Assembly (NCBI GenBank): GCA_015956445.1
Contig: WIUZ02000018.1
Coordinates: 744,001 to 808,000 of the forward strand
Reading direction: 5' to 3'
Source: Thelephora terrestris
Taxonomy: Eukaryota; Basidiomycota; Agaricomycetes; Thelephorales; Thelephoraceae
Length of the DNA: 64,000 bases
Shown: one piece after another, positions 30,777-62,199 of the stretch
Position numbering within the stretch: position 1 is the first letter of the stretch
Layout of the letters: each line of letters begins with the position of its first letter
Notes under the pieces: generated by a model
What the model was told of the DNA's origin: nothing
Databases searched by the model: none
What the model saw: only the letters and a program-made list of their open reading frames with translations
Translations under genes and position numbers: made by a program

Positions 30777-31363
30777 TACTGGGGACAAGCCCCTACTTAC
30801 TGACCAGGTACTTTTTGAATACATTATAGTTCCATGTCCAATGTACCAGCACTTTGCTGGGCAAGAACAAGTTGAGCTCTTTCAGAATGTACTGAACAAT
30901 GTAATTGCTACTTCCCAGCTCAGTACATTGTGGAAACATTTGAAAAGTACTGAATCATGTGACCACAATGTCCCTGATCAGTAATCATTCAGTACTTTTT
31001 GATTGTCCCAAAGAAAGTGATCAACAAGTACCTGCACTGCACATTGTTTTCAATCAAAATTTACTGGGTCATGTGACCACAAAGTACCAAACCAGTAAAT
31101 GCTGAGTACTTCTAGAATGTCCTGGGCCCATGTGTTCAAATTTTACCCAAGTGGCTCAAAGAAAATGTGATCACAAAGTACTGAGACTGGGTAAATCCTG
31201 AACGCTTTTGAAAGAAACGAAAATATACTGAATCGTTTAAAAAGTACTGTACATTGATTCAGTATATTTTGGCTTCTTTCAGAAAGTGTTCAGGATTTAC
31301 CCAGTCTCAGTACTTTGTGATCACATTTTCTTTGAGCCACTTGGGTAAAATTTGGACACATGG
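30777..31363. mobile_element. CACTG-type MITE remnant with hairpin
   Basis: AT-rich, non-coding stretch that starts ACTGGGGACAAG (about 30778), close to the terminal CACTGGGGGCAAG of the MITE at 22324, and interrupts the coiled-coil segment before it. Its right part is a strong hairpin: left arm about 31130-31235, right arm about 31255-31363, loop about 20 bp. The right arm stops abruptly at 31363, where TGTCAGGG begins, so the MITE appears cut by a later insertion. Confidence 0.6.
31130..31363. repeat. Inverted repeat (hairpin)
   Basis: Arms of about 105 bp with only scattered mismatches, containing GTGATCACAAAGTACTGAG in one arm and its reverse complement in the other. Confidence 0.85.
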
Positions 31364-31761
31364 TGTCAGGGTTACCAGCCTAAGCTTGTTCTGATGTCAG
31401 AGGATCAGTGTTGGGGATGGAAAGGGGGTTAGAGCAGAGGTCTAGGGAGGTGGTATGTAGGGGCAGAGGGAGATGGATGTGGGGATAGAGGGGTTTGTTC
31501 TCTTGGTTGATACCTGTGACCAATGAGAAGATGTTAGGAGTGTATTGAGGGTTCACACTTCAGGCAATTGATTTGCCCATCAAATGAATAGAAGGGTGAG
31601 GATAGAGTATGGTTTATACTCTCTGATATATTGAAACTAATGATAGTGATTACAAAGAAGATTGAGGATGGGAAAAGAGAAAGGTCTGAGACACCTTTCC
31701 TTTTTTACATGCATTCCGGCGCGATTCAGCACCTGAATCTAGCGCCCGTCACGATTTCCTT

Positions 31762-32030
31762 AAAAGGAAATTTTCACCAACATGTCGGAAATTTTCACCA
31801 ACATGTCGGAAATTTTCACCAACTTGGCGGAAATTTTCACCAGCATGTCGGAAATTTTCACCACCACGACGGAAATTTTCACCACCACGACGGAAATTTT
31901 CACCAACATGGCGGAAATTTTCACTGACAAGGTGAAAATTTTCACCACCACGGAAATTTTCACTTACACCAGGGAAATTATCATTAACACCGGCATTTTC
32001 ACCAACACCACCCTCACGTTTTCACCAACC
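31762..32030. repeat. 21-bp minisatellite (GGAAATTTTCACC units)
   Basis: About ten to twelve degenerate tandem units of 21 bp, each beginning GGAAATTTTCACC and then varying. Because 21 is a multiple of three, both strands stay open and give artefactual heptad-repeat frames (GNFHQHV type on +, VVKIS type on -). No flanking coding signal supports either. Confidence 0.9.
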
Positions 32031-33366
32031 TCCCTTTTCGCTAATGCCTTTTCAGTTGTCCCCAACCAAAGCAGCCTTCTCTGCCAACCTCCCCACCGAC
32101 TCGCTCACCAATTGGGTTGCCACAAATAGCTTCACAAAGTAGTTGCCTAACATAGGTGCCCAAGGTCACCACAGGGCATCTGATATGCTCATGTGGCACC
32201 ATTTCTGTGACAGGGTCGTAGAACACGGTCATTTAACGCTATCATCTGACAGGGTTTTTTAACTTGGTCTTCTGAAGTAGTTCTCCAGCACCATCGTCCG
32301 AAGGAGTTGTCATGGTTAATTTTTGAATTTTTGAACAAAAAATCTTGCGATGTGCGGTCCAGATTGTTGAAAGATTTAACCAAAAAGGGTGAACCGCTAA
32401 GATGGCAAACACACCATCAATAAATACTGAGATGGAGGGATTTTGCGACGGGTGAAGTGACGATAGAAGTACGTTGTTGAAGAGAAGAATGGTGGAGTGC
32501 TACAGAGGTAGGAGAACGACGAGAGGCCTGACCAACAGATGCTATCCAGGAGATAGGACTGCAGCTAACATACCAATTCAACTCAACAGTGCTCCCCAGA
32601 GAGTTGTCACCTAGATAGGAGCATGTACTTCCATCTATTGAACGACCAAGCGGTCGGCTCATGCAAGGGGGCCACCTGGTAGATTGACCGGCAACTCAAG
32701 CATCAAGTTTACTCGACGGTGGGTACAGTCCTCCCTAGACACGTGAGGAGACCTAGATAGAAGTCAGCAGTTCAACCGAGGGGAGTAACAGGGGTCACTC
32801 AACGCTCAAGGTTGAACTCTCCTTGAGAGAGATATGCAAGGGGGGTTGCTCACCGCTCTCGACAACTCAGCCATCGAGTCAACTCAACGGTGAGATGGTT
32901 TGTAGGTTAGCCATCGCATAGCCTGCACAAAGTCTCTGGACGGTGAGAACTCATAAGTGTGAGTCTAGTGAGAACCTAAAGATGGAGCAAAAGGGCATCG
33001 GCTGAACGGGGATGACGACGGACGAACGGGCAAGGCAAGTGCGACGCGTCATCGATAATTTTTCCTTTTTAGGAATGTACTGCACCCGTGCGAAGTCACC
33101 AGTCAGGAAACGGCGAAAGCTGAAGAGTGAGAAAAATAGGTGATAATGATAGATCGCTCATCTACAGATTTGAGACTATAACTGCTCAAGACAGGAACAT
33201 GGAGTTGAAATGATGCAAAACGCATGTGAATATAACTGTGGGTGAGATAGGAAGGGGTCAAGGCAAATAAAGGGCACAACACAATGCGGGCGCTCGAAGT
33301 TGGTGAGCGACTATACCGAAAACAGACCAGTCAACGGATGGAAATGAGAGCTATTGAACAATTCAA
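32031..33366. other. Non-coding stretch downstream of the RecQ fusion gene
   Basis: No gene recognised in 1.3 kb. Two imperfect copies of a block beginning GCAAGGGGG and ending in CTCAACGGTG or a close variant lie about 173 bp apart (near 32665 and 32838), suggesting an old tandem duplication. This is the left subterminal region of the candidate large element. Confidence 0.4.
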
Positions 33367-36300
33367 CTACAACTTAAGCCGTGGGTACCACTGCCGGCAC
33401 AGCCAGGTAAACACAGACAAGATCCTGACGTCTTCCGTATCTGCCCCGTAGCTGGTCAACCAGACGGCATAGTCGACCTCAGGATTTTGGCCTGGAGAGA
33501 AACCGAAGTCCTTGCGAAGCTGCTCGAAGAGGTGGGGGGTTTGGAAGATGTGCCAAGCAGCCACAACTGCGCTGTCACTGAACTTACAACCTTTGCCATT
33601 GGGGTTGCTGTGGTAGCCAGCAACGGCGTTTGGTAAGCTACAGAAGTGGCACCTACTTACACCTGTTGGCCAAGTAAAGTTCCTCTTCTTCCAATCGATC
33701 CAACGCATCCCGCTGGCAGAACTGTTGCATTTGAATGGCAGGTGGGGCTTCTTCGAGCATGTGGTTTTGCTGCTGAGTCCACATTCGGAGTGGCAAGGAT
33801 CGTGACTAGTCGAACTGATCCTACAGGCAAAACATCCCCCCATTTTCTCCAGGAGACCCATGGCTGAACGGGCATGTCTCACTCTTGCATCTGTTTTTTG
33901 CTGGGCGGTCAGAGCCCCCAGTCGAGTGATTGCAGCAGTTGAGGGGAGAGGCCGTGAGGCTATGGGAAGGGGTAGTGGGGTAGTAGGGAGGGGGTGTGTA
34001 TCCGACCTGTGGCTCTGTTCAGTTGGAGTGGAAGGGGGCGTACTAAGTAGGTCGAGAGTAGGTACTATGGTCAATGGGGAGGTGGCTTGTGAAACGAGCG
34101 GGTGCAGACGGCCTTCGCAAAAGTCACATAGAAGGGAGTTCGGAACAAGGGAACAAGGGAGGTCTTCACCATCCATGGTTTTGGAGATTCCTCGTCGCCG
34201 ACATGATGGAGTGATGAGAATTTTCTCCATCTCCTCCCGGAAGCAATACGGACTTTCGTTGGGGAGGGGTGTAGGAATGTCGTTGAAAAGCACTGCAACG
34301 AGAGATTCTTGACCACCCCTGCCCCCTCGCCCGGCTCCTTGAATGAAGTCGTACAGGCCAAAGGGACACCCTAGGAAGATGACGGCATTGACTTGGGGGT
34401 AATCGACGCCGTGGAGGAGAGCAGTCGTAGAAACCATCCATTTGGAAGGATGGTCCTTTGAAAACCAAGAGTTCAGTTGTTCGTCCTTTTGTTCGCCGGT
34501 CATGTTCCCATAAAAAGTGCAGACAGGGAACAAACAGGAGTCAGTAAACTCCTGCAAGTCCCTGAGAGATCGAACGAAGAAGATCCCACGAGCCCCTGGA
34601 TCCTCCTTCCACTCCTCTAGCAGGAGGGTGGCCAGTTGAGCACCGGAAGGGAAGACTGCCTCTGGAGTTGGCAATCCAACGACCTGCAGTCTGTGATTGG
34701 GTCGTGCGGTTGGCAACCTGAGGAGGAGCGTTCTTGGGAGGGGTATTCCGAGGGATTTCAAGAGGACCGGTTCATGACAGGGTGCAAGGGTGGCAGTGAG
34801 GAAAACCTTTTGGCCTGTAACTTCGCGAAGATGGATCATGGACTGCATTTTTGGTCGATAGGTGTCGCATAGGAAAACCGAGTGTGCTTCATCCAAAGTG
34901 ACCCGCACCACCTGTTTGTTCCTGAGAAAACTAGACTAGAGTGAGCTTCTCATGCGAGTAGCATCGAACATAACGTGCTCACTCTTTGGCCTCAGGCTGG
35001 TAGACATCGTCCGTTATCATGATGACCAATTGTACCGTTGTACAGCTGGGTCGGCCATCGAGAGTTCTCTCGTTCCAAAGGAGGAATTTGATCCCGAAAG
35101 CATGGGCCTGCTCAGCGAGCTGGCGACGAAGGGCAGTATAACAGGTGACGACAACAGAGATCCCATTTTCCCCAGCAAGAAGGGGTCCGAAAATAGCGAG
35201 GGATTTTCCAGAACCAGTGGGTAGAACTGCGAGGATGTTCTCAGCTCTATTTTCTAGGATCCCTTGGAGGAGGAGTCTTTGCTTGTCGCTTGTAAAGGTA
35301 GACCCAGGCCGTCCGGTATAGAGGGACAAGACCCGAAGAAGCTCCCCCTCTTTGTCACCCACAGAAGAAGACGGTGTAGATGTGATGAGTTCAGACCCAA
35401 CGCTTGACTTGGAGAACATGTTAGAAGGTCTGACAAAGCAGCCAGATCAAGACTTACATCAGGGGGTGTGATTGCGGTTGGGGCCCGATACAGGCCAGGT
35501 AGAGATGCCAGAGAGGCACCTGGCAAATTGGGCACACCGATTGCGGACAAGGCTGCGACTGCCTCGAAAACTGTGTCTCTGATCATCTTTTCGTACTTGA
35601 CAGAGAATTCTTCAACAGCAAATGAGAGGCCAGAGGAGATAGCGTGGTGGACCTCGCGCATGATCTCTTTGGAAGAGGGCAGTTGGGGTGGTAGGGAACT
35701 AGGGCCTTGCCAGAATGCCCTTTCAGGTGAGTAGAGGAAGTAGGGTATCGGTCGAACTGGGGAAGGTTCTGGACCAAGGCCAAGGACGGTGTGCAATTTT
35801 CTGCACCATTCGTGGGCAAGACTGTACAACGCAGCCTCCTGGCCAGGTAGATGGTCTATTCGTTGGCCATAGACGCGGTTTGCGACGGCTGAGCTGTGGC
35901 CAGCTTGAGAATCACCAAACTTTTGAACAGAGGGGTCGATGACAGGAGGAAGGAAGACGTGTTGGATGTTGATTAGAACGTGCCGGAGTTGGGAACCAGT
36001 GAGTCGACACTTGAAATACTGCTCTGTGAAATTGGAGATGATTCCGGAAAGTCCTCTGGGACCTAATTTCTGCCCCTTCACCACATAGAGAAACTGACAG
36101 TAGTTGGCATGCTTCTCAGTCCACCCCAAGCTTGCACTTAGGAGGATTTCCACCGGTCGAACCGTGGCGAGATAGTATGTTAGGAGCTCCGCCACCTTCT
36201 CAGGGGGGAAATGGATGACGGAGGATCTATATCCCTTGAGGGTCGACGACTTTAGATTCCTTCGAAGCAAGAACACTTGGCCATGTGCGATGTAAACATT

Positions 36301-36653
36301 CCTTTGCGCAGACCCATTGCGATAGCGGTCATCCACAACTTCGGTAAGGCGGAGGGGACCAGAGCCTGTGGAGTGAACCAGGAAAGTGATGGCCTCTATA
36401 ATTGGCTTGAGGGTGTGGAGGAATTCTTGAGCGGCGCCAGAGTCCACTTCGAAAGTAGGCTTGCCTCCGACAGGGGGGCCTGGTCTTAAAAGAGGTAAAT
36501 TTGAGGACTTTGCCATTTCGTAAAGTAGCGGAAGACTTGGTGGCTCTGTCCTGACGTGGTTTATGAAGGAATCCCCGATTTCTTCCGACCGGAAGTCCTC
36601 CGATAAACAGAGAGGTACCTGGACTTCAATCTTCTTACGGCCGGTCAAAGCCA

Positions 36654-39596
36654 GTAGCTGTCAGGGCCACTCTTCGCCCTTCAGGTACCAGTGCTGTTGG
36701 TGAGTCGCAACTCCAACCAACAAGAAACAATGGGGCAAAGGGGGAACGACTTCCCTATATCCACCCAAAGTCTTCGTGGTCCAAAAAGCGATGGACGAGC
36801 GTTCTCCGGTAGGTTGTCCGAATTCACAGCAGGAGTGCCGAGCCTCTATCAGGTAAATCCCTATCGTCTTCTGAGGGCAGATACAAGAGCCCGAGGATGG
36901 CGCCTCAAACTGATGACTTGATCCAAAGAGCAGTGCGGAACTCGATGTCGTGTCCGAGCTCGCTTCAAACACCGGTTAAGGATCAAGACTGAGTGAGAGA
37001 GGAGAGCGAACGGTTCAAGGAGTTACTCGATAAGCTCTTCAGTGGCCTACAGCAATTACACCGATGCTGCAAGGAGAAGAGGACTTCCCGAGATATCAAA
37101 GATGGGGAGTCCTCAACTACTCTACCGATACTTATATAAGAGAGTGGCCGGGACATAGATAATCCTATCTAATAATAACTCGGAACAAAGAAGGGCCGAG
37201 AGTAAGCACGAACAGTAAGCGGCCCGGAGTATAGAATTGAAATGATAAAGGAATGACTAATGGGTCAGGGTTCGTGAGAAAATATGAAAGGGGTCATGAC
37301 GTCGTGTGAGAAAGGAATGACAAAGGATAATATCACATGCAAGGGTGAACCAATGAGGGGACGACGCGTCAGCTCGTCCGATCGGAACAACAAAGGACCG
37401 AGTGGGGCGCGAATGTCAAAAGCGAATGTATGGGGAGTCTGGACCGGTGAAATGATGGGCCGAGCCAAATGGCGAATAGGGCGCGGGCGCTGTCGAGGGT
37501 CGAATAAAGCGTAGTGCGAACCGGCCATTGGATCCATCAAACTCCCTTCTTCCAAACCATCCATCCCACCAACCAACTACTCATCCATTATGCCCATGAT
37601 CTCCGATCGTGTCTTCCGTGCTGAGAACAGCACCGCTACCATCGAGTCTGCGGATCCGCGCTCCGTACAGAACAAGAGTTACTTCCTCCCGAACGCCAAC
37701 GTGGCGTACCCCAGTTATCGCGAGGTGCGACGTCACGTGTCGCTGTTTGCTGGCAACAACTGACATCGCATCGTAGATCTTCGCGGTTGCCGCCAAAGTG
37801 GATGCCCGACAACTGGAGGCGACGATAGCCAAGCCTCCCAACTACTTGACCATAGATGACGAGTTGTGGTATCACAACTTGATTGACCACAAGTTGCAGG
37901 AGTCTATGCGCGGGGTCACGTTTGACACCGAGTTGTGTATGCCATGGGAGACTCCGGTGGCGTCATCGTTATGGGGTCTTCTGAAGATGGGAATTTATGA
38001 TCTGGGAAACGGCGAAGGAAGGTGGCCGGGAGCGACTCGTTCGCAACACTTTACAGCAGCCGTTGGTCACCGTCTCTGGTTCCTTTTAAGGACAGAGCAG
38101 AAAGCGGTGAGTCGGTCTGTGCATCCCGCTTGTGGGATAACACTGACAGGCTTGTAGAATGAGCGGCTGAAACGCGAAGTGAAGGAAGCGAAGGATGATG
38201 CCCGTAGGATGTACTCGGAAGCGTTGGACACGAAGAAGACGCTGCTCCTGATGAACGACACGCTTCGCGTCACGTTTGAGAGCGAGATGCTAGCGATGCG
38301 TGAGGAACACAATCGGTTGGTCGAGTCCCTGAAGGAACGGGATGACACCATCCAGCGGGACCTGATCGAGGTCGATCGACGGCTCAACCGTCATAGAAGG
38401 GCTCTGAATGAGCTCGACACCAAGGTCGGTGCGACTTCTCCTGGTCTTCATCCAAGAGAGCTCATGCCACTCCTAGGTCGATACGTTGGACGACGCTCTG
38501 CCATTGTTGGGCGCTCGGGTCGAATCGATGAGCGAGCGGTTGTGCCATTGCCGCACTCGTTCGGTAGCTGCGGTTCGCGATGAGTCCGAGGATGAGTCGA
38601 TACCCGATCGGATGGCTTCTCCCATAGGTGGGATGTCGGTTGACATATTTGGCTTGTCCACTGACATCCCTTTTTAGCTTCCGATGGGTCGTACCGTACA
38701 CCTGCGCATACTGATGGCGGGGAGGAGGTCATTCGCGAGACGTCCGAGGAGACGGCCGTGAATCCGGTTAGCAGTTCTCCCGAGTTGGAGTACGCGGGGG
38801 AGAACGAAGTGGCTGTTCCGATTCCGCCTCCGTCGATCTCGCCGGTGCGTGGGCAACGTTCTATCCGTGCTCGTCGTTGGGTTCCTTATCGCGGGGCACT
38901 TCGTCCAGCGCACCGCATGCGTCCCAGTAATCCCAACGTTGTCCGCCAGGGTGGAGACATCGAATCCACCGTCCTATTCCGATGCGACGATGCTACAGTG
39001 TCGCGTGGATCACGGCGAGCTGATTCCGGTGGAGTCTGTCGACGTGAACGGCTTAACCGACCTTACGCTCTTGTCGGTCCAGCGTGCAGCGGAGGCCGTT
39101 CGCCTGGTGGCTCAACTGACCGAGAGGGTGGAGGGTTGGTCAGTCCAGAGGACTCTGGATCAGACTATGGTCGATTCAGCGAGGAACCGCCTTCGCGCCG
39201 AGGTTCAGTTGGCCGTCGCTCATCGTCTGGAGGAAGCTCGGGTCGTCAAGATGGTCGACGAGGAAGTCGACGAGAATGTCTCGGAGGGGACGGAGGAGGA
39301 GGTTGCCAGTGCTGAGGAGTACTGGCAGACTAGGTCTTGACGACCAGGGTTTGTACGCCTTAGTCCTCGCCCATAGAGTCCGGGCGGATTCAACTTCGTC
39401 GGTTTGATAGCCTCGCGTCTTCGCTGTGCGCCTTGTGTAATATCATCAGTGTCCTTGTCTGTGTTCCTTGCTGACGTGCGAGTCGTGATAAAGGAAATGA
39501 TAAGATAAGAAAGGGGTATAGGTAAGGAAAGTGGGCGAAAGTTGGGTGTGAAAAATGGTTCAAAAAGGGAATAAAATTCAGCACGCTGACAGTAGC
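36654..39596 (+). mobile_element. Element A2 (TGTCAG-ended, 2,933 bp) inside the RecQ fusion gene
   Basis: Body 36659-39591 with the exact 5-bp duplication GTAGC on both sides (36654-36658 and 39592-39596). It starts TGTCAGGGCCACTCTTCG and ends GCACGCTGACA. Same length as A1 and nearly identical by eye, in the opposite orientation in this window. The insertion lies within a coding exon of the host gene: the - strand reading on either side (TWAQL, then LALTGRKK) is continuous once one copy of the duplication is discounted. A recent insertion. Confidence 0.92.
37590..39340 (+). CDS. Coiled-coil protein gene of element A2
   Basis: Counterpart of the A1 gene with the same 1,751-bp span. Start MPMISDRVFRAENS at 37590, final stop at 39338-39340. 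Recognisable introns include 38107-38157 (GTGAGT...TTGTAG), between the globular and coiled-coil segments. The segment boundaries match A1 and A3. It is transcribed antisense to the gene it interrupts. Function unknown; no enzymatic motif seen. Confidence 0.6.
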
Positions 39597-42079
39597 TGAG
39601 CCCACGTAGCCTCAATCAGTTCGTTGAGACCTGACTGGAGCCTGGATAAGGATAGATTTCGTCCTCGATACGAAAGAGAGGTGTAATCTGGGTTGTATAG
39701 GATGGTGGGATTACCGGGCTCTTTCAGAGCTAAGGTGGAGGCATATTTCTTTAAGGATATGAGGTCGTCGGAAATTCTGCCTTCTCCGGTCCCCAGGTAC
39801 TGTTTGCACAGCCTTTCGATGAGGCTAAGACAGGGGAAGCAAGGTTAGCCAAGTTGAATTCGAATGACAATAGAAGCCTCACGAGACAAAGTTAACGCCG
39901 CTGCCCAAATTGTGTAGCGCAGTTTTGAGAACCACAGCTCTTGAGAGGTAGAGCAGCCTCGATATCGGCTGAGTAACGAGGCCAGCCTTGACGAAAGTTC
40001 CTTGTGTTCTGAGGGAGAGCAGAGCCATGTATGAGTGCACGGGACAGGCCAGGCGTCCCATTACGGTTATGTCAAAGCTTCGCTCTCGGAACAGGACACA
40101 AGAGAGAGCCACTTGGAACCTCTGGACATTCTCTTTGGAGGAGCCGGTCGGGGACATGAGGAACTTCTTATAGTCATCTAATAAGGCACGTTGCTCATCC
40201 GTGAATCTGGTGGGGACGGCGTCTGGAGGTAGGTTGAAAACCCTGAGGCAAAATGCAAGGAGGGATATTGCAGTTCCGCAATAGCGCCGCACACTATCAC
40301 GTTCTCGCAAGACTTTCCACGGACCCATGTACCTTAACACCAATAGGTTACCTACGGAAGTGAAAGGTCAGAGAAAACTGCTTACTGGCGGTGGGATTTT
40401 AACATGACTGAAACCCGGTGAGAACAGCTCATATGTGCCTCCTCTGCATCTGCCCACCAGCTGGGCCCATGGTCTGTAAGTTTCATAAGCCAGTCAGGGT
40501 CGGAGGTAGGGTTGGGGAAGGAGACCAAAGACTGGAGGTGCGCGATACTTGTCTTGTCGGTAAAGTACGGCTGCAGAAGTTGGGGCCATCTTGTAAACCA
40601 GTGGATTGATGCACGTTCCTTGTCGTTCTCTGCGGTTGGCATTTCTGGTTTAGGTAGTTGTCTAAACATATCAATGGCATGGGCGTAGGCAGAGGTGGGC
40701 AGAGGATCGGGGTGGGAAAGGGAGGGGTCCACGGAGAAGTAGCGCACCAGTCCTCCCCGGTTGAAGAGAGTCTGCACGTAGGAAGAGCACAAGGAGGGTG
40801 TGGGTTTGCTCTCTTGTGGTTCACGGTGATCAGAGAGATGCCGAGAAAATGTGGACTGCGCTCCGAATGCCCGAGAACAGAGGGACCCATCTTCATTCGA
40901 AAGGGGGCACAAAAATCCTTCCAGAACCATCAAACCGTCAACAGGCTTCTGACCAGGGGTCTGAGTATACAGCTCAGTGGCGGAAGTCCGGTAGCCACTG
41001 TCCACAAGGGGTTCCACTACTGTGTCTTGTTGACCGGGAGAAAGGACAGGTCTTCCTGGATGGTAGGTCCTTGAGTGCGAGTTAAGCATGTCCGTAGGAA
41101 CACCACGGTGGCAGCTGGTGCAAATGAGGATCTTCGCCTCCTCGTTGAGGCCATAGCCAAAGCTGGAAAGTGGTTGGACGTATCTTAGTTCTAGAAGGTC
41201 TGGGTCAGCAGAAGTTTAAAAAAGTAACACATGCAAGCGCTTACTATCCGTCCCGTACACTGAGCTGGAGTTGTCCACGCGGACATCTTCTGGTTGCAAG
41301 GGAGGCTCAGTTGCCTCCAACCCAGACGGTGAGTAATCCTCGGAGGGGGGTTGGATCCAGGCGGGAAGGTTGAAAGAAGGAGGAACAATCTCATCCTCCT
41401 CATCTCCAAAAGCTTCTGACGACGCATCAGAGTGATAGGATTCTTCTTCCCAGTCCTCATCCTCATCCTCTTCTATCCCTGTATCGGGAGGTCCTCCTTT
41501 TTCGCTGACAGAGAGAGGGGGGAAATCGATGGCCATGGCTTGGTTGTCGTCGTCATCCTCATCCCTGCTGTTGTATTCTTCCCCATCCTCTTCTTCATCG
41601 ACATCTTCCATATCGATATCTTCGGCAACTGTTGCCAACCCTGAAAAGGCTGATGTGGTTTGCGAAGACGCCTGGAATGAAGGTCGTCGTGGCAAGGCGG
41701 TGACTTTGAGACTGTGGGTTTTTTCACAGTGGGATCTGACCCTGTGGGGGGTGGCGCCACAAAAGTTAGAGCAGATAGGGCACTGGAACTCCCCTCGACC
41801 GTTTTCTCTGTGTAAGAGGGACTTCTTGCCTGTGGGAGGGTGAGTGGTAGGTCGTTAGGACTTGGATAAGACTGGACGCACCGTCAATAGTGACAAGAAC
41901 CGGGAAGTGGTGAGCCCGACGGTGATCAGTCAAGGCCTTAGCTGTGGGAAAGTCTTTGTTGCAAAGAACGCAATGTTTTTTCCCTCCGGCTTAGCAAATT
42001 ATGGGTCAGCTTAACCGCATAGGTAGTGAACCTCGTCGCTCTACTCACAATTTCGGGGAGTTGCAGGAGCTCTGAACAT

Positions 42080-47100: not shown

Positions 47101-47555
47101 TGGTCACTGGAACCGTCGACGTTGTGGACCATCCGCTCAAGATGGAGGTATTGACAGAGGGGGTCCCAATGGAAGGGGTAGAGCTGAGCCAACCGACCGG
47201 AGGTCACTCAGTTGACAGTCCTCAGGAACGGGATGAAGATTGGATGGACCAGGTGGACGTCTGGGATGCAGATGACGAAGAGTCCATGGAAGAGATCACG
47301 GATCCCTCAGATGAAGCCGATGAAGAGTCAATGGACCAGGTTACGGATCCCTCAGATGGAGATGAAGAAGAGTCCATCTACTCCCAGGGGGAAATCCACA
47401 AGTCGGACGGTGAGTAGATTGAGTTTTGTTCACACATCTCGCACTGATAGACTATTGCAGTATACTCTATGGCAGGCCACAAGCCTACGAGGGCAGAAAA
47501 GGATGAGGCCCTACTTAAACTGAAGGAGGCCCGCCGGGTGAAGTACGGACTGTGA
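44116..47555 (+). CDS. Large protein of unknown function (candidate element gene)
   Basis: Multi-exon gene; start uncertain (ATG at 44116 chosen, 5' exons possible). Introns seen with the frame kept: 44770-44819, 45345-45394, one near 45520-45572 ending AACGCAG, 46191-46242 and 47410-47460; stop at 47553-47555. One more junction near 46700-46760 is needed and could not be fixed. Features: a Pro-rich start, a helical core (LLEANLEAEECWKDPTKHL; DIGPKLDLIFSKHYKPNGHR), an aromatic-rich region (SRHWWDGINPSQTGHRPW), a Lys/Glu-rich linker (KEEPATRKEG) and a strongly acidic C-terminus with repeated DPSDE-type units. I recognise no catalytic motif or family. It is convergent with F1. Confidence 0.55.
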
Positions 47556-52285: not shown

Positions 52286-52400
52286 AAGGACCCCGACCGC
52301 TCTGGAGGGTCAGGAACACCGCGAAATGCGGGAACTGGCACCCTTCTATGGCGGATATGTATATTTGCTGTTCAAACTATTCCTGCGGACAGTCACTCAG
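52286..52400 (+). repeat. Dispersed ~115-bp repeat, copy 2
   Basis: Matches the reverse complement of 9700-9815 (shared block around CAGGAACACCGCGAAATGCG). It sits in the unpaired centre of the F1/F2 palindrome and is followed by short CAGTCAC repeats. Confidence 0.75.
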
Positions 52401-52802
52401 TCACCCAGTCACTCACTTAACCAGATTTTATTCTTTTTTAATCATAATCCACGTGGGACTCTTGAGAAAAATTTCATTTGGCCCATGCCGCGATCAGCCT
52501 CGTAAGTACCCGGAACGAGTCCCGTGAGGTCCCGTGATGATCGTATTTGCAATTGAATTGGTAATTGAATTTGTTCAATTGTTGTCCCAATGGGTGCAAG
52601 CGCCGATCCGTTGATCACATGTTTGCCACGATCAGTCCCGGCACTTTTGTTCCAAAAAAGATTCCGAATCCAAGCTCCGATCCGATGATCACGTGTCGTT
52701 TGCCACGATTTGCCTCCTTCGAGATGACTCCTTCTTTCGCTTGACGGTGACTCCCATCATCTCCCTCCCCTCCCTCTCGCCGCGGCGGTTTACCCTGCGC
52801 TC

Positions 52803-53197
52803 GAGTAGCCCTCCGACTAGCTTCGAGTTTACTTGACTCGTCGGAGGGTTCCCTCTCTTTGACTCTCATTCACAGCGACGGCTTCAAGGTTCGGGCAGAT
52901 CGCTTCCCTCGCTCTCGCCGCGATGGCTCCAGCTTCCTTCGGTAGATTGCCGCCTTGATCTCGTTATCCCCTGTGCTCGAGTCGCCCTCCGACCAGCTTC
53001 GAGTTTACTTGACTCGTTGGAGGGTTCCCTCTCTTTGACTCTCATTCACAGCGACGGCTTCAAGGTTTGGGCAGATCGCTTCCCTCGCTCTCGCCGCGAT
53101 GGCTCCAGCTTCCTTCGGTGGATTGCCGCCTTGATCTCGTTATCCCCTGTGCTCGAGTCGCCCTCCGACCAGCTTCAAGTTTACTTGACTCGTTGGA
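52803..53197 (+). repeat. 176-bp tandem repeat in the right promoter arm
   Basis: Units start with GAGT(A/C)GCCCTCCGAC at 52803, 52979 and 53155, so there are two full 176-bp units and a partial third. The left arm has a single unit, so the expansion happened after the arms were duplicated. Confidence 0.85.
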
Positions 53198-53827
53198 GCG
53201 CACTCTTCTGCACCTGAACTCTCAGGCAACAGTTCTACGCTCTCTACCTCCCACCCTCTCTTTTCCCTTCCACACCGTTTCTTCCGGCACCTCCTGACTT
53301 TCGATCCCTCGATCCGTCCCTTCTTTCTCAACACTGGACACTTTGGGCCTCACATCCACCTCGCCTACTCGTTCAGGAGGGATCTATCGTGGGCATGAGT
53401 CTCCACAGTGGAGAAACCGTCTTACCATTGTATGTCGCTCGCTTATCCGCCTGTCACTTTGATCGATGAACTAATCTCGATTTTCCATCCCTTCAGGTCC
53501 TTACCCAGTATTCCTGCTGGGATCTACGGAACGTCCCGTACCGAACACTGGCTGGATCTGCCGATCCATCACCTTTTCCCCTACCCATCATCTTTTTTCT
53601 CTCCACGTGAGGGCTTCCCCGTGGGAATGGCCCAGCCTTTATATAGCAAGCTGACTTCGCTGTCATCTTTTGCTCCCCGACCACCATCTTCCTCCTCATT
53701 GCCTCACCTCAGGGTTGACCCTTTGGTTGAGTTTTTGCTCTCCCCTCTGCTCCGATCACCCGATCCAGGGAAGACTTGTGCTCTCTACTCCTCCAGGACA
53801 CACTGTTTACTGTTTTTGTAGTGTACG

Positions 53828-56800
53828 ATGGCGGTAAGTCGTTTACGCTGTTAGCCTTCATTTGTCACTCACAATCAGCATCAGCTCCGGATTTTTAAAT
53901 TTGGCAACGACTTGGTCTCGACACTCGAACAGGATCCTGCCCATGACCCTTCTCCCGAAACCATGGGACTTGTTTCCCAATCTAACCCCAGATATGACGT
54001 TCTCTGGGATCGCAACCTCACCCTTCCCCTCTCTCGCAATCCCATCCCTGGCACCCCTGCAGGAAATCCACGTGGCTTCCCTATACATTATTCTCAGCGG
54101 GAAAAGTATTGGTTGCCCTATCTCCCTGCTGTGACTTCGTTGCATTATCCGATCTTCAGAAACTTTGAAGCAAAACCGACAGTGTCAGGGGAACTACGCA
54201 AATTTTTCATTGACCAAAAAGCCTGCGAGCTTTGGTGGAAGATTGAAACTGCCATCCTGACTCTGATAAACCGGTTGAAGGCAGGCGGTTACCCCAGCAA
54301 GCACCAGGTACCCTTTTACCCCTCCTCCTACCGATACAAATACAATTTCGACAAGAGGAGACCTGCCAAAGACGCATCCGTCGCGGCTGTTCTTTCGTTC
54401 CATCATATGCTGGCTTACTGTTCATACCTCATCTCATCCCACAAATCTATCCCCTTTGGTAACGCCGAGCATGAAGATCTGTTCAAAAATCCACAACATG
54501 TTGACCGACTCATAAACCGCCGAGATCCCGATGATTCCACCCCCGCCTTCCTTACAAAACTACTCTGGGCTACGCTAGGTGAAATCAAACAGGGTCGAAA
54601 CTTTACTGGTGTGGTTGTCAGGTACACGGAAGATTACGGGTACGATGTCCTTGAGCTGATGCAGGACTACGGAGTCCCAGTTTACGTCAGCTGGTCCATA
54701 CCTTTGGGACTCTCTACCTATTCCAAGTTTCCGATGTCCACGATTCTTAACAAGTGGCACCCCCCAGCCCCTTCCTTGTCAGGGTTGGTCCACCCTCGAC
54801 GCCCAGCCAGTCTCCCTCCCACTACATCCTCCGATCGCCAGCCTCCACCCACATCTCCACCTGCCACCCCGAGTCAGAACATGGATCCCCACCAGTATGT
54901 TAGGATGAGGAAAGCAAGGATTGATTCCTTTAAGAACAAACCACAGAGCTGGTCAAGTCGGCAGCAGGCAGCACAGACTTTCAGCCAGCCTGGAGGTCAA
55001 GGTGCTCTGGTCTTCGAGTTCGAACGCACAGAAACAGTGGATGAAACCACGAACAAAACCGTCCTCGGTTGGCGAAGGTCGCAGATCACTAGGGGGCAAG
55101 TAACGCAACAATGGGAAATATTTGAGCGTCGTCATCTCTGGTGAGCTGCAGTCTTCTTCATTCCCTTCACTCTCTCATTTGGTACTAGGTTCGACTGTGA
55201 GCTCAACGAGTGGAACCATTGTGAGGAGTTCAACTTTGCCAACGCCACTTCGAATGCGGTCAGCAATTACTACGACGACTACGAGGAAGACGATGAGGAA
55301 GACGATTATGAGTTAGATGGCGAAGGCAACGACCCGTCGTGGGGAGGCCTGCACCCGCTCGATGGGTGGAACCTCCAGTTCACGAAGAGGAACAAACGCC
55401 TCGCCTTGAAGTTGTCGATAGAATGGCTGCAGTTTCCCCGGTCAGCGGTTCCCCCGATGAAAACTCCTGGTTCGAACGCGACGATGTCGATGACTACGAA
55501 TATGAAGATGACGAAATGGATGGCGACTATTATGAGGACGGTGACGACGTCCCAGATGAAGAAGCTTGGGGGGAGCCAGCTCCCGTGGAGTATTTTCTAG
55601 TGGATGCCAACACTGGATGCCAGCAACCTCAGGCTGGATTCGTGGACAGATCGGCAGAAGCCCCTCCCCCCAGCCAATCCCCCCTCAGCGTGAAAGATGT
55701 TGATGATGTCATTGGGGACGAGCCAGCTCTTCATCGCCTAGCCGAACTTGAAGACCGGATAGTCGATAACCCGCCTCATACAGATCCTGACGTTGAAATG
55801 GACGACATCCCTATTCCAGGTAGCTCGCTACCAAAACCTCCACCTCTGATACCCGTTGAAGATTTTGCCTACAAACGATACGGGCTTCTAGTCTCAGGGG
55901 ACGTTGTCCCTACCACAGAAGCACGTTGGCCCCAAAGGCTCGGCTTGAAAGGGAGAACCTTAACCAGCTACATTCAACTCCACGATTCTTTCCTCCAAGG
56001 AGTTTGGCCACCCAAGATTTGCGATCTGTCGCCGGATACCAGCCACCCTGGATTTTCAACTAGGTTTCGGGGCCCAAGGATTTGGATCAGGCATTCCACC
56101 GCAACCACTCTGCAGGGGTATATTATCACCCTCACTCGGCATCCTCCCGTTAACTGGAAAATTTTCATCGAAGACCCGCTCACCATCCTTCAGATTGACA
56201 GGGAAGGGTGGGATCACGACCCTGACAATTTGGTGGCCAACCTGGTTAGGAAGGGGTTGCCATTCAAGATCCTCAATCCTGAGAGGCTGGAACCTGGCTC
56301 GTTTGTTCCCCACCTCAATAGCTTCCCCGTTCCTCACTTCGACAGACAACTCGACCGTGCAGACTACATCAATTATCAAAACGAGGCTCTCAGGTTCTTC
56401 CAAGCCTACCCACACGCTTACGCTGCAGCTCTGTCTGCTGGTGGTGTCCTACGGAGGATCGCCATGGACGTCCTCCCCTCACCCCAAGAGTCTGACATCA
56501 CTCGTCTCTTCCACCTGGAGGCGTGTTCCGAAGCCGTGGTGAACGGAGTCCATTACTGGACCCCTGACCTTACCGACGCTCAGGAGGATGTTGTCGTTGG
56601 AGTCTCTACGTGTCCCCTCTCCTGTAAGGCACCTTATATTAATTCTGCAGAGACATTTTACTTACGAGATACAGCTTTTCGACAAGACGGCCATCTCAGC
56701 TGGTGGCCAAGATGTACGAATTGGGACTCCTCAGGCCTTGACCTCGGTGCTTGGTCCCCCACGGATGAATTCTGGTACACGGAAAGGAAAGCTGCCCTGA

Positions 56801-56931
56801 TGGCCTCTACTGCAGGGCCTGTCCGGACCCGGGACTGGAAGAAACGACTCAAGTATGATCCAGCCAACCTCCCCTTCCTCGTAGCCGCTCGAGCCTTGGC
56901 CAGGACATCCGTTGCCACCCTTCGCCCGTAA
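53828..56931 (+). CDS. F2: unknown protein, inverted paralogue of F1
   Basis: Starts with a two-codon exon (ATG GCG, 53828-53833), then exons 53879-55140, 55189-56623 and 56669-56931. The final intron is 56624-56668 (GTAAGG...CGAG). The same micro-exon and intron positions occur in F1. One further junction between 55190 and about 55345 could not be placed, so the acidic linker there is uncertain. Protein blocks shared with F1: MA/HQLRIFKFGND, YWLPYLPAVTSLHY, YGVPVYVSWSIPLG, W-FDCELNEWN, FIEDPLTILQIDREGW, YPHAYAAALSAGGVLRRIAM and SWWPRCTNWDSSGLDLGAW. The two are well diverged, so the duplication is old even though their promoters are still alike. Family and function unknown. Confidence 0.68.
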
Positions 56932-57957
56932 CCACATCACAGTGAGTTCCTCTTACTCTTGGCTCCTCCCACTGGCTAAATCTTTTTATACATAAGATAT
57001 TTTGAGCTTACTTTATACTACGCTGCCATTTGTTACCTCTCCCCAGTCAATCTCAATGTTGACGTTCTGCAATAAATTCGTCCGATTATTTCCTGCTCTT
57101 TTTTGTGGAGCTTGAACGGAAATTCGCCTGAACCTCACTTAGCTAGTATGCTGGTACCTGTTGTGCAGGTTGCCCAGTAGCTTTGGTAGTGTCTTCGAAT
57201 GCCCAATATTCTTTTCTTGATCCTGTTTTGTTCTAGGTGTTCGTTTTACTAAGCACACGTACAAAACGCCTTGGTTCCATTTTCTGGTAATCGACGGGCA
57301 AGTCCAAGGATAAGGTCACTGCCATACAATTCCTGCCCTTCATGACAAGCAACTGACAGCGACTGTCCCCAGCCCTGAATCTGCTACCTGCCCCTCCTGA
57401 TCTGCCATTAGATGAGACTGGTCCCAATTGACTTCTCCCTAGCAAAGACCTCCGCACCTCTTCGACGCCCATGTGCTGCGTGGGTCCAGACTGGGGAGTT
57501 GGACGATGGGTATGTATCGTCCTTCTCCCTGTTGGTAGCATCTCTCTAATCCCAGTTATCTTCATGGGACTGCTTGGGAGGAGTCTGGAGGTCAGAATGA
57601 CCGAGCTCCGTCACCTCTAGTCCCTCCCCTCCCCGTTCTCCAGGGTTGCCTCTGATTTATCGGATGGCAACCGTTCCTACATGTCTCAGAGGAGAGTTGA
57701 TCCAATCAGAAGCAGGGACTCCCGTGTCAGTCAGTCAATATTTGACCCATCCTCTTCCACATCATTCAAACGTTAAATTGCGATTCCTTTTCAGAAAATT
57801 TCAGACAGCCACGTGGAAGCAGCCCCAAGCGCTAGCTCCAGTCGTAGAAAAACGAGTCACCTTTAGATCGAGTCACTTCTCTCTTCTTCTTCCTCCACCA
57901 CCAATCCTCCCTCCACGTTGCTGTCCCACCCCTTCCAATCACAACCCCTCCAGCATC
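56932..57957. other. Spacer and promoter of the PHD/caspase-like gene
   Basis: About 1 kb. A - strand frame at 57565-57233 (110 codons) has no support. A motif CCTCTGATTTATCGGATGG at about 57647 recurs in related form before the dioxygenase gene (about 59959) and at about 62099; see findings. A CT-rich leader (about 57880-57955) precedes the ATG. Confidence 0.4.
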
Positions 57958-59696
57958 ATGGTGAAAAGGCGAAAGAATACTGCACGTAAATCCGTTGGGG
58001 GTCTCGCCAAAAGGATAGAACTGGTGCCGGTTCCAGATCGGCTCCTTAGATCCCGCTCTGCCTCTTCCCGGGGTTCCCGGAGTTCAAGTGTTGCATCTGC
58101 GGTCCCTACCCCACCGCCTATGGAGATTGAAGGGGGGGATCAAGGTGACGTTATGCAGGTAGAGGAGAACCTGGATAAACCAGAAGCGGGCGATCCGTTT
58201 ACCGATGATGTGCGTCTCCCTCCCTCTCTACTTTTGGGTCATCATTCTCATATCCACAGTGGTGTGCACTGTGCTCTGACGGCCATGATACCTTGGTCAC
58301 ATGCAACAACTGCGGTGCTGCAAACTGCGGGACGTGTGTCCCAGGTCTCATCGAAGTTACCAACCAAGTCTTGAGCACCTGCTATTACAAATGCGTGGGA
58401 TGTACTCATCGGGGTGCGCTTTTCGAGGTCAGTCGATGCTCTGGATGAAATACAACGACATCCTGATTAGTTCTTAGGGGCTCTTTTACAAGAGCAGCGG
58501 GAAGCCAGTCTTTCCATTGGGTATGGAGGTGGCTACCCACAATCTTACCAGTACATACAAGAACCGGCTCAGAACACCTCGATTGGTCATAATCGAGTTC
58601 ATCCTTGAATCGCTGGTGGACACGGGTACTGCAGGTTCGATGTTGTTCATGTCCCTGGTTTCGAACTATACCCGGGAACATAAGGGCAACATCCACCACG
58701 AAAAAATCCTCTTCGATCTCAACAACGATGAAGCTCAAAAACAACACGAGGCCTCCATGGTGAAAAGGGTGCAGCGTCTCAGAAAGATGTAGGTTTTCTT
58801 CTACGCAATATGGAAACCGAGATTCTCACAATGCCTGCCCTTAGGAATACCTTTGATCATGTGGTCGTCATAGTCCACACGCATTCAGATGATGAAAGGG
58901 GCGATCTTTTCATCACTTCCAAGAGCGACGAGTATCAGACACCTCTCTCTGCTACCATTGAATATGTAGGCAACCAGTTAACGCTGCAACGTAAGGCTAA
59001 AACAATTTCAAGTTTTTTCAGGTTATCGTTGGCAAAGCCGTACGCGACTACGTAGCAGGGATGAAATACTCGTCCTTATTTATGCTTTCGTGTGGATCAG
59101 TCGTGCGGGTTGAAGAAGCTAGGAACGAACTCAAGAAGGTTGCCCAAGAGTAGGCAATGGAGTTACCTCGCTTGCTCGATATCTGACTTTGCTCCAGTTT
59201 CTTGATTGTAGACACCTTCGCCTTTGGGGCGAAGAAGGTCATCAGCCAGTTCATAGCCATATGGATGATCTCCTATGCCAACAAGGTCATCGTTATGGGG
59301 ATGTATGCAGACTCTTGCATAATTTCCCTATTGTACTCATCCGAGATTGGCCACCATACCTCAGTCCTATTTCTCAGCAATCGTCAACGTGGAGCAGATA
59401 CGATGTCCGTGTCTCGCTATATCTGGGGGCACAGAAACCAAAGGCCGAACACCCACACTTTCCCCATCGCCTGTCCCTCCTGTCACAGGATTCACCCATG
59501 GAACCGTCTCCCAGAAACCGCAGCACACATAGGGGACCCCGTTGAGCTGCGTTGCAAACTTCTAGATGGTCCCTGGTTATACAAATGTAACGAGTCCTAC
59601 CAAATCGCTGCACGTCCACCTTCCACCCCAGTAGAGGCCCCCTACGTTGGCACCTGGTACGCATGTACCTCGGATGGGGATGAACAATCGTCATAA
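57958..59696 (+). CDS. PHD-like zinc finger fused to a caspase/CHAT-like domain
   Basis: About 492 residues in six exons: 57958-58209, 58260-58427, 58478-58788, 58845-58965, 59022-59149 and 59198-59696. Introns of 48-56 bp all keep the frame. Residues 1-84 are basic and Ser-rich (MVKRRKNTARKS; RSRSASSRGSRSSS). Residues 85-135 form a Cys-rich finger, WCALCSDGHDTLVTCNNC then CGTC and YYKCVGCTH, PHD-like in spacing. Residues 245-390 read as an alpha/beta domain with HVVVIVHTHSDD (His255/His257) and SSLFMLSCGS (Cys308), the His and Cys placement seen in caspase and CHAT peptidases, followed by DTFAFGAKKV and NKVIVMG. A CPSC pair (419-422) begins a C-terminal zinc-ribbon-like part. The exon structure is solid; the peptidase reading is inference from motif placement only. 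Confidence 0.65.
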
Positions 59697-60482
59697 CGGA
59701 GATTTTGTGGACGTCTACTTGCTAATTTTCGGCTGCTCTCCCTACAACCATTTTATACATACGTCTTCCACCACTTGTTTGTTCCTTAACTACGCCTGCC
59801 TCATGACAAGATATTTTCCGCAGAAGTTGGTCATTAAACCGGTGTTTGGGAATTGCCACACAGCCATGGGTGCTCAGACCGTCACAACAACGGTTGAGGG
59901 AACTCTCTTTACTGGTTCTTTTCAAATTTCATCTTCAAACACCTCTAAGTTCTAATGTCACCTCTGATTTACGGAATGGAAACAGTTTTCCCATTCCAGG
60001 GGGGATCCTGCCAGTTGTTTGGGCTCCCTTTCACGCCTACTCTCCACTCGCGATCTTCTTTCTCTCAGGTGTTCTTGAGCTTTTTGCTTTCTTGTCCAAG
60101 GCAAGCTTCCATCGTCTGTGCGGGTCACTTTGGGCCCTGTTGAGTACTCCCTCCTTCATTAGATGGCAACGTTTCTTACCTGTTGCAGGCAGCTGTGTCA
60201 AACTTAGTCGAAGATGTAGCTGACGGCACGAGGCCATCCACGTTCCCCGCTTTCGGACCTTATTGCCTGCTGAAGCGGCGTCAATGCCTTGCCAAGCGGC
60301 TGGTTCTTTGGGGATCGATGTCCGTGACGGTTAGGTCCAATTACAGTTGCCAGCACACAAGGACTATTTATGGTCTCTTTTATCTCTCCATCCCCCCTGT
60401 CTCTCCTTCCCCCTCCCCAGTTCACCCATCACCACTGGTGTGACGTTATACCCAGCAGCCCCCTCCCATACCGTTCCGACCT
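59697..60482. other. Promoter region of the dioxygenase gene
   Basis: About 0.8 kb without a supportable gene. It contains a CCTCTGATTTACGGAATGG motif (about 59959) and a TTAGATGGCAACGTTTC motif (about 60158), both related to the one before the preceding gene. Confidence 0.4.
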
Positions 60483-61839
60483 ATGCCATCCAAAGGTCAA
60501 GAATACTTTGGTTGGAGTTACGAAGAGATCTGCCAGGAACTCTTCGACAACACAGACCCATTGACGGATTTGGAGGAGATTGAGGTTTCCGCGTCGGCTC
60601 CAAGAATCAACAAAGTAGCTATCAAGCCCATAGCCGGTACACAGGAGAATGAGTCCTCCTCCCAGAATTCAGGGTAAGCCCGTTTGTCTCTCACGTTGAA
60701 GCCTTTCACCTACATCCCCCTTGAGGCATCTTCCAACCCGCGTAAACGAAGCCAGCGTGCTCCGCAGTTTCATCAACCAGGACAAAAAATTGATAGCTGA
60801 AGCTAGGGCAGCCAAGGGTCAGATTTCTACGTCCCAGTGATCTCCAATTGAAAACTGACACGTTCTATCCTTTCAAGTGGTCTTTGAAGGCTTTGACCTC
60901 CGTCAGACTGTTGAAGCTGCAAGAACCAAGGGTGCTAAACCCAATAATCGTGAACCGGAGCTTGAGACCCGGTGGCTTGACGACAGGCCACGTCTTGCAG
61001 TTGACAGGAACGGTATTCCAATCATTCTTCATATCCCCAACTGGCATCGTAAAAAATCTTTGGTTGGTGTTTGCACACATTTCTCAGTTTCGTGCTCTGA
61101 CTTTGAAGCAGGAGAGATTCAATGACCTCTGCTTGAAACTCGCAGAAAAGACTCCGCCTACTCCTGGTGATAGTGCTGATGGTGGGTATAGGAATTCCCC
61201 AGACGCTTACCAGGACGCCGAAGGTGAAGTTTCTGGCCGGATAAAACTGGTCACCTGCTGGCACGCAATTGGGCACCCGGTAGGCACCTTTCTTCGATGT
61301 TTGTACAAAATTCTAATTTCTATCAGAACGATGCTCCTGTGCCATCGTCTTCTGTAACTGGGAGTGGACGAAAGTTTGCTGTTGCTACGACTGCCCTCTC
61401 TGACTTCAAATTGATCGCAAAACGGCTCAACAAGATCTTAGAGGTTCTGGACCCAGGAGCCGCATCCCAGTACTTGAACCTACGGCAAACTGCTATGGAT
61501 AAGGTGCCCTATCTCCGTGCCTTCGATGCTGTGGACCCGTCATATTGGCAGGGCAGGATGATCTTGTTCAACTCACAGACACCAGCTCATACGGACAACC
61601 GGTGCCCACCCCCAGAATGGACGCCACTCCATGCTGCAGGAACTTTCACAGAAGGGGGATGTTTTTATGCTCATGACCTAAAACTCAGAATGAGGTACTT
61701 GCCCGGCGACCTCATCTTCTTGAGAGGTTATTCCCTTTCGCATAGTGTAAAGCCATGGAAAGGAGGTCAGAGGATCTCTGTTGTCTACTTTACTCACGAG
61801 AGTGTTTGGCAACATTTTGACTGTGTTCTCACCTTGTAA
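60483..61839 (+). CDS. TET/JBP-type 2-oxoglutarate/Fe(II) dioxygenase
   Basis: About 383 residues in five exons: 60483-60673, 60726-60817, 60878-61062, 61109-61279 and 61327-61839. Introns of 46-60 bp all keep the frame. The double-stranded beta-helix core is in the last exon. The iron-binding HxD is in PAHTDN (His301, Asp303), the distal His352 is in SLSHSVKPW, and Arg362 in GGQRISVVYFTH fits the 2-oxoglutarate contact. The core ends LRMRYLPGDLIFLRGY...FTHESVW, as in the agaricomycete family assigned to TET/JBP. Known relatives oxidise 5-methylcytosine or thymine in DNA, and fungal expansions are often linked to transposons. All four key residues are present, so it may be active. Substrate here is not shown by sequence. 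Confidence 0.82.
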
Positions 61840-62199
61840 CATCTGATCATATCGAGGATACCGTACTCAAGTACTTTTCTGGCAAATCCATGGCAGAACC
61901 TCTGCCTCCTTTCCTCAGATGGCCCTGACAATGGGCCGCAGTGCGATCGCATGATCACCATTAGTCAAAAGAAAGATGCACGTGACCCAGTAACGGTCAC
62001 AAAACACGTGAGGCCCACCGATCAACAGAGCTTCTGCTCGGCTATATCACGTTGAGGTTGAACTCCGTTCTCCTTCCTCCGTTCCTCTCCCTCTGTCCTC
62101 TATTTATTGGATGAAAACCTTTTAACGCCCGTCTTGTTTCAGCTCTTCCCTCTTGATGTTACTTCCTTTGTTTTTTGTAGGCTACCTTTCTCAACCTCT
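61840..62199. other. Right border of the cluster
   Basis: Holds the 3' end of the dioxygenase gene, the proposed right end CCCTGACA (61923-61930) and about 270 bp of unique sequence. At about 62099 a TCCTCTATTTATTGGATG motif resembles those before the two preceding genes, so another gene of the same cluster may begin here and be interrupted by element A3. Confidence 0.4.

Follow-up and report, generated by a model that had tools for sequence, protein, structure and literature searches.

Considered here is a 64,000-nucleotide stretch of DNA from the basidiomycete Thelephora terrestris (NCBI GenBank assembly GCA_015956445.1, contig WIUZ02000018.1, positions 744,001 to 808,000 of the forward strand), hereafter ‘the window’, along with a repeated block of genes which the window contains. 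This block is a multi-gene unit that possesses one recurring left terminus and one recurring right terminus, that is found between differing flanks, and whose copies are mostly 99-100% identical. It is, that is, a recently amplified unit, one which encodes constrained enzymes. Among these are a protein combining OrsD/zinc-finger, tyrosine-recombinase-like, and RecQ helicase parts (here YR-RecQ, with YR for tyrosine recombinase) as well as a TET/JBP-like dioxygenase. Chances appear to be about even that the block is an approximately 28.4-kb, ‘cargo’-carrying mobile element which is moved by its own YR-RecQ protein.

Positions are those of the window unless preceded by a contig handle (C4, C8, etc., with C10 the contig of the window). 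Copy counts, as based on genome searches, are lower bounds, one search having missed even C10 and C8.

Copies and borders of the block

The sole two-ended copy, on C8, has the window’s gene order and extends from 632,839 to ~661,257 (28.4 kb). Its layout consists of the left end (632,839), RecQ (634,460-636,025), the recombinase open reading frame or ORF (636,347-637,750), a region containing genes G2 and G3 (to 649,725), a region containing genes G4 and G5 (652,057-658,959), TET (to 660,260), and the right end (~661,257). DNA identity to the window is 97-100%, or 83% in the 21-bp repeats found near the left end, with 649,725-652,057, i.e., a palindrome, excluded from this letter-by-letter comparison. 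Additional copies are partial: C12-left (33.15-51.4 kb), C14 (46.3-59.2 kb, with insertions), C47 (55.7 kb to the right end), C11-right (left end to 45,231), C4-right (left end, recombinase, and RecQ), and both C7 and C11-left (left end to 33.3 kb, where those contigs start). Older relatives, at 80-93%, are seen at C4:1.085-1.109 Mb and C12:157-171 kb, and the RecQ gene is present as five copies at 99-100%.

One left end, at ~31,703 (ACATGCATTCC...), is common to six loci, and the sequence from ACATGCATTCCGG onward is what is shared by these loci: C7, C10, C11 (twice), C4, and C8. As viewed on the RecQ strand, this terminus is a 3' end, i.e., ...hairpin-GGAATGCATGTA(A)n. The pattern ACATGCATTCCGGCGCGATTC (a 21-mer, searched with up to 3 mismatches) occurs at seven places in the genome, versus none for the control, and six of those places are block ends (with 1 mismatch in C4 and 2 in C8). 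The remaining place, on C45 and with 3 mismatches, was taken as a chance match. The flanks to the left of this border are a dispersed repeat starting with TGTCAGGG in C10, copies of another repeat in C7, C8, and C11-left, and, in C11-right and C4, sequence which beside the border has no window match.

At three of these left ends (C8, C7, and C11-left) the block interrupts another repeat at A(A/G)AGATA, each time in a different copy of that repeat. Eight uninterrupted copies of this target repeat, as available from the loci examined, read AAAGATAA through both interrupted sites (GAAGATAAC in one case), and the interrupted copies read AAAGA (AGAGA in C7) and then TACATG(C/G)ATTCC. That the target repeats of C7 and C8 are just 88% alike implies that these are different repeat copies, versus 99-100% for the blocks along the greater part of their length. 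A candidate separate short element at C11:23.9k was rejected, this being instead the left end of a block as parted from its remainder by inserted sequence. An approximately 22-kb insertion (C11:1509-24119; L012, L032), possessing inverted-repeat-like ends, splits the 21-bp repeats of C11-left.

To the right, in C8, C47, and C12, sequences beyond the counterpart of 62204 run into ~108-bp tandem repeats, which stop after ~790, 440, and 220 bp, respectively. The stopping point is at an identical phase of the ~108-bp unit in all three (GCACGTTCCACCTGC, GCACGTTCGCGTGC, GCATGTTCACATGC), against three different flanks. The right terminus, that is, is where a ~108-bp repeat array finishes (GCACGTTC..CNTGC), 0.2-0.8 kb beyond the 62,204 counterpart. 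The block’s last part is absent from the window copy because of disruption by another TGTCAGGG repeat at 62205, one extending to about contig position 809,354. Folding indicates hairpin-forming potential at both block ends, and no terminal inverted repeat was seen between the shared ends. The end hexamers are ACATGC on the left and, on the right, ACCTGC (C8), ACATGC (C12), and GCGTGC (C47). A palindromic, ~300-bp-repeat sequence starting with TAAAGGGTGACTTAGG adjoins both the C10 repeat (809,355-811,710, L054) and the right end of C47 (C47:6,898-, L053).

The putative mover

The minus-strand gene nearest the left end has Pfam matches to Helicase_C (2.2e-13) and OrsD (1.8e-7), with Bloom-type helicases its best PDB relatives. 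Found between OrsD and the helicase is a ~360-aa stretch in which R186, K219, R308-H309, H337, and Y346 are invariant across three paralogues, all from this genome, the other two having 60% and 28% identity with the first. The spacings of these residues are 33, 89, 29, and 9, and their contexts are PxR, RRxxK, LRH, HxS, and VYx. This matches the R-K-R-H-Y catalytic layout of tyrosine recombinases such as Cre. Judged by motif and spacing alone, the stretch thus likely is tyrosine-recombinase-like. For two of the paralogues, a Pfam scan of this region at E up to 10 yields no family.

The corresponding 550-aa ORF is open in C8, C12, and C4, and is split in the window copy by a nested element. Comparison of RecQ with its C6 paralogue yields a ratio of nonsynonymous to synonymous substitution rates (dN/dS) of 0.21 at a dS of 1.7, i.e., purifying selection, read as constraint rather than as a precise rate. 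For the recombinase ORF dS is saturated, leaving no ratio. The 6 kb which include and follow the end of the C6 RecQ gene contain no conserved terminus.

As to how such a protein might move the block, the zinc-finger/OrsD part would bind the element’s ends, the recombinase would link the TTTACATGC end with a matching target that is short and contains TA (AAAGATA), and the RecQ motor would either open the hairpins or assist replication. The OrsD/zinc-finger-tyrosine-recombinase-RecQ protein would, that is, be the ‘mover’. The TET/JBP enzyme would oxidize methylated bases on the element, such that copies stay unsilenced.

The TET/JBP gene and a second TET family

Matches of the TET exon are weak (NgTET E 0.005, CcTET E 0.11) yet span the metal and oxoglutarate motifs, including HxD, and a Pfam match to Tet_JBP (E 0.06) is below the family cut-off. 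The HxD...H triad, as AHTD...SLSH, aligns with that of NgTET as well as with proteins of a second repeat family, which is what would be expected of a TET/JBP enzyme. That second family consists of a TET exon which is 63% identical in protein (70% in DNA) along with a nearby, 28%-identical G4 homologue, as found at seven dispersed places. Between the two families the TET exon has a dN/dS of 0.13 at a dS of 1.5, which similarly represents purifying selection, i.e., constraint and not a precise rate.

The two genes are linked a second time on C1, with 6.4 kb between a decayed YR-RecQ relative (C1:1,332,693-1,336,548) and a partial TET (C1:1,342,956-1,343,367). Over C1:1332693-1344533 there are YR-RecQ pieces, 38-64% identical, no more than ~6-10 kb away from the partial TET and from a short sequence resembling the block’s right region. 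This possibly is an old element of a second lineage. A ~117-bp dispersed repeat, found in the window at 9700-9816 and 52285-52401, is also present 3' of second-family TET genes.

An earlier delimitation of the element

An earlier note on this DNA had proposed a 30.6-kb element, at 31360-61934, as bounded by an 8-bp inverted repeat, TGTCAGGG...CCCTGACA, and flanked by a 4-bp ATGG duplication. The strings do exist, TGTCAGGG at 31364-31371 and CCCTGACA at 61923-61930 with ATGG beside both, and the RecQ/OrsD gene, the TET/JBP gene, and the nested element which that note described were all recovered, by Pfam, sequence comparison, and repeat analysis. As ends of an element, however, the strings are too common: TGTCAGGG occurs 1074 times on the plus strand and 1102 times on the minus strand of 40.6 Mb (468 and 452 for a reversed-pattern control), with six occurrences of the 8-mer in each orientation in the window alone, and about 0.84 occurrences of CCCTGACA are expected per 31 kb. 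This enrichment is at least partly because repeats, such as the nested 2.9-kb element, start with TGTCAGGG. The pairing of the two is a chance match of common short sequences.

Both proposed ends, moreover, have other explanations. With window 31300-33300 as the query there are at least 42 genome matches, one group of which covers just 31364 to ~31702-31710. Sixteen of the 17 other displayed loci of that group extend beyond ~31702, nearly all as ...CCTTATATATAT-TCCCATCC (with small variants in L026 and L033). In L031 an additional TGTCAGGG repeat makes a cut at the ~31702 point, while L030 is cut on its 5' side. As the window’s copy stops at ~31702, it represents a truncated flank, with the block’s border at ~31,703. 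The possibility of a solo long terminal repeat at 31364-31709 was dropped for the same reason, i.e., those 16 of 17 copies extend past its supposed end. On the right, C8 and C47 match 59200-62204 (~3,005 bp) unbroken through 61930, with 7 mismatches and 1 gap for C8 and 9 mismatches for C47, and homologous sequence in C12 (87%) also spans that site. The ATGGGCC at 61931 therefore is the block’s own sequence rather than, as had been claimed, a duplicated flank and the resumption of a hairpin cut at 31363. The right border instead is past the 62,204 counterpart in other copies. Copies of the gene set thus are bordered elsewhere, an outcome designated beforehand as telling against the TGTCAGGG...CCCTGACA interval, and the probability that the element as so delimited is real is next to nil. 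What survives from that earlier proposal is a repeated, apparently mobile unit pairing a recombinase-RecQ with a TET/JBP gene; its ends, its length, and its terminal inverted repeat do not.

Weighing of explanations

Arguing for an element moved by its own YR-RecQ protein are the six-locus left border, the three right ends of same phase, the two-ended C8 copy, the target repeats, the invariant recombinase residues, the constraint on TET and RecQ, and the YR-RecQ/TET linkage on C1. A number of observations weigh against that idea. Searches of Pfam and of PDB sequences gave no match for the ~360-aa stretch, tyrosine recombinases included, and a single-sequence AlphaFold model of the window’s recombinase piece, with a mean pLDDT (confidence score) of 35, was not used. 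The T-run at the left junction varies from 1 to 6 T’s, which a precise recombinase would not explain. Ends are not fixed in all copies, with C12-left stopping at 33,150, its next 1.9 kb lacking block match, and C14 lacking both ends. Likeness of the 6-bp ends is imperfect in C8 (ACATGG/ACCTGC), no target duplication was found at block copies, and among the copies there is none for which an empty site with its two flanks was found. Indeed, the right flank of the C8 copy does not continue the repeat that is cut by its left flank.

This last point counts as well toward what is a serious, if distinctly lesser, possibility, which is that the block is subtelomeric, of a telomere-linked helicase type, and has been copied from one chromosome end to another through recombination, whether break-induced or ectopic, with the left border then the start of common chromosome-end sequence. 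In Agaricus bisporus var. burnettii there are 19 RecQ gene models, all subtelomeric, and ten with identical protein (PMC7473861). In T. terrestris, too, the six copies which hold the left part or RecQ and are no more than ~40 kb from a contig end (C7 left, C10 right, C11 left, C11 right, C4 right, and C12 left) all have the left part inward and the remainder toward that end. The older copies, C12:157k and C4:1.09M, likewise point to the nearer contig end. C47 is oriented oppositely, however, and the two-ended C8 copy is ~296 kb from its contig end. Telomere proximity, furthermore, is unproved, as contig ends may be assembly breaks within a repeat. Each of the 45 TTAGGG-type matches is more than 50 kb from the ends of contigs whose length is known (C56 is not among these). 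Telomeres seem to be unassembled, and the copies are not placeable relative to them. Telomeres at the starts of C7 and C11 were considered and rejected: both lack telomere repeats and begin at the counterpart of 33344, i.e., these contigs simply begin inside the block. Homologous exchange also would not be expected to leave so sharp a border, nearly to one base in six contexts and thrice at A(A/G)AGATA. The mobile-element and subtelomeric ideas nevertheless may both be true, that is, with an element which favors chromosome ends.

Two further possibilities are each improbable. Movement of the block in trans, as a giant Helitron-like (rolling-circle) element that is itself non-autonomous, would be consistent with stem-loops at both termini, one of them ~12 nt before its end, with the lack of target duplication, and with a RecQ-strand end that reads ...GTA(A)n and then T in 4 of 6 junctions. 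Pfam scans of 20 selected ORFs, however, found no transposase, HUH nuclease, or Rep/Helitron helicase, there is no 5'-TC or CTRR-3' terminus, and the C8 flanks form no simple insertion. Alternatively, the block might consist of a YR-RecQ unit (~31.7-43 kb) beside a G2-TET unit (~43-62 kb), these being separate elements that by chance were duplicated together. No YR-RecQ match is reported near the seven second-family TET/G4 copies, and no TET or G4 match is reported on C6, the contig of the closest YR-RecQ paralogue, both of which count against a single self-moved element as well. C14 is without both ends, and 45,231 is as far as the C11-right match extends. Across the 43-45 kb junction, however, sequence is unbroken at ~100% in C10, C8, and C12-left, no terminus-like border was seen near it, and decayed YR-RecQ and partial TET are neighbors at C1:1.33-1.34 Mb.

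Comparison with known systems

It is established that fungal DNA transposons can carry TET genes (PMC12730594), and known cargo elements of the YR type include Starships (PMC12134995) and the smaller Cryptons (PMC3212892). The block resembles Starships in spanning tens of kb, in holding many unrelated genes, in having a putative tyrosine-recombinase mover, and in inserting into other repeats. It differs in lacking a DUF3435 (PF11917) match (Pfam, E up to 10, two paralogues), in its recombinase being fused to OrsD and RecQ, and in gene placement: the Starship ‘captain’ is the leading 5' gene, whereas the block’s recombinase gene is end-most, ~1.7 kb from the end, with its 3' end facing the border, i.e., it is transcribed outward. 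With regard to Starship direct repeats and empty sites, the block offers its left target, as seen in 3 copies versus 8 uninterrupted repeats, with the C8 right side unmatched.

Cryptons (here CryptonF) similarly are YR DNA elements without terminal inverted repeats and with short end repeats proposed as substrates, and active-type YR residues (R-H-R-Y) are present in the block, as based on motif and spacing. Pfam scans of the block, however, found OrsD rather than a GCR1_C domain, there is the RecQ fusion, and ~28 kb including TET and other genes is involved. Versus the 4-6-bp terminal direct repeats of Cryptons, the block’s end repeats are imperfect (C8 ACATGG/ACCTGC). As defining features of each are lacking, the block is classed as neither Starship nor Crypton.

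Telomere-linked RecQ genes resemble the block in being multi-copy, near-identical, and mostly near contig ends. In A. bisporus, though, a helicase core is reported as the sole domain (PMC7473861), versus the block’s conserved tyrosine-recombinase-like domain upstream, and the block has a sharp left border as well as a copy ~296 kb inside of a contig. With TET-bearing DNA transposons (Kyakuja, Zisupton, Plavaka, Helitron, etc.; PMC12730594) the block shares a TET/JBP dioxygenase. It differs from DDE types (KDZ, Plavaka, EnSpm) in that no DDE transposase or HUH nuclease was found in scanned ORFs nor any terminal inverted repeat seen, and its TET is HxD rather than the HxE that, according to that source, marks the PE type. 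In that paper’s main text the words RecQ, recombinase, and Crypton are absent. Among the papers listed by a search that left subscription literature and preprints mostly outside, titles and abstract openings revealed no YR-RecQ or OrsD-RecQ mobile element nor TET with a Starship-like element. A 37.2-kb region of Pleurotus ostreatus, with inverted repeats and present in one genome but missing from another (PMC4289320), may be worth comparing with the block.

Other genes and features

Features are summarized in Table 1. The palindrome between the divergent G3 and G4 contains ~176-bp sub-repeats and possibly arose through duplication of a promoter region. Among G2-G5 there could be a mover whose divergence puts it beyond the reach of Pfam. 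Rfam provided no match, and 32 pattern matches to viral contigs included no relative. Elsewhere in the genome, perfect telomere-repeat arrays are located within contigs in pairs that face each other, for the most part at distances of 1-1.8 kb (4-9 kb for some). Self-comparison of one such locus, L079, shows a 98% full-length foldback whose arms contain degenerate as well as perfect TTAGGG-type repeats, and L080 is ~90% alike.

Table 1. Features of the block and its flanks (window positions), with related loci on other contigs.
Feature	Position	Strand	Basis or remark
Foldback (hairpin) repeat adjoining TGTCAGGG repeat	31121..31363		Flank
Truncated 5' part of dispersed TGTCAGGG repeat (left end of the earlier note)	31364..31702	+	Flank, outside block
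Repeated block, window copy	31703..62204		Last part absent, repeat from 62205 in its place
Left terminus: TTTTACATGCATTCC then 12-bp-stem hairpin (31718-31746)	31703..31746	-	Pattern search and fold
21-bp tandem repeats (GGAAATTTTCACCAACATGTC-like) beside left terminus	31766..31975		Also at other left ends
OrsD/zinc-finger, tyrosine-recombinase-like, and RecQ helicase gene	33370..42100	-	Pfam, PDB relatives, residues
Nested TGTCAG...CTGACA repeat, 2.9 kb	36659..39591	+	Target-site duplication GTAGC; missing at C8 site, C8 ORF uninterrupted
G2, function unknown	44110..47556	+	ORFs; no Pfam match for ORFs scanned
G3, function unknown, G4 paralogue	48790..51171	-	BLASTP 5e-49 vs G4
Palindrome, 658-bp arms, 97%, 2.2 kb	51448..53619		Between divergent G3 and G4
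G4, function unknown	53829..56931	+	28% homologue near second-family TET
G5, function unknown, Cys-rich zinc-finger-like stretch	57958..59696	+	Read from sequence; no Pfam match for its ORFs
TET/JBP-like dioxygenase, HTD...H metal triad	60483..61839	+	NgTET, CcTET, and Pfam comparisons
CCCTGACA plus ATGG (right end of the earlier note)	61923..61934	+	Block-internal, no border
Another TGTCAGGG repeat, interrupting block after CTCGATC	62205..64000	+	Extends beyond the window
Second-family TET loci	C1:4463001-4477911, C34:2455572-, C58:486714-, C12:722546-731567, C20:105953-111661, C4:42678-50773, C59:51083-59929
Facing telomere-array pairs	C1:3383656-3385342, C2:468281-469918, C2:864339-865274, C3:214487-216144, C12:2338968-2340834, C13:503639-505226, C58:1448571-1450057, C59, C60 (L079, L080)

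Implications

More broadly, and on balance doubtfully, the multi-copy RecQ blocks of mushrooms, which so far have been known as subtelomeric helicase genes, may be giant YR-RecQ mobile elements, i.e., ~28-kb units which insert at AAAGATA-like sites, are oriented preferentially toward chromosome ends, and carry their own TET against methylation silencing. Such elements would be a basidiomycete counterpart of Starships, one with an unrelated captain. If that is so, then fungal subtelomeric RecQ genes would gain a mechanism, as movers of mobile elements rather than as telomere-maintenance genes, and there would exist a cargo-carrying YR element beyond the DUF3435 Starships. As such an element would also bear a base-modifying enzyme, the protection of mobile DNA from silencing by TET would become directly testable.

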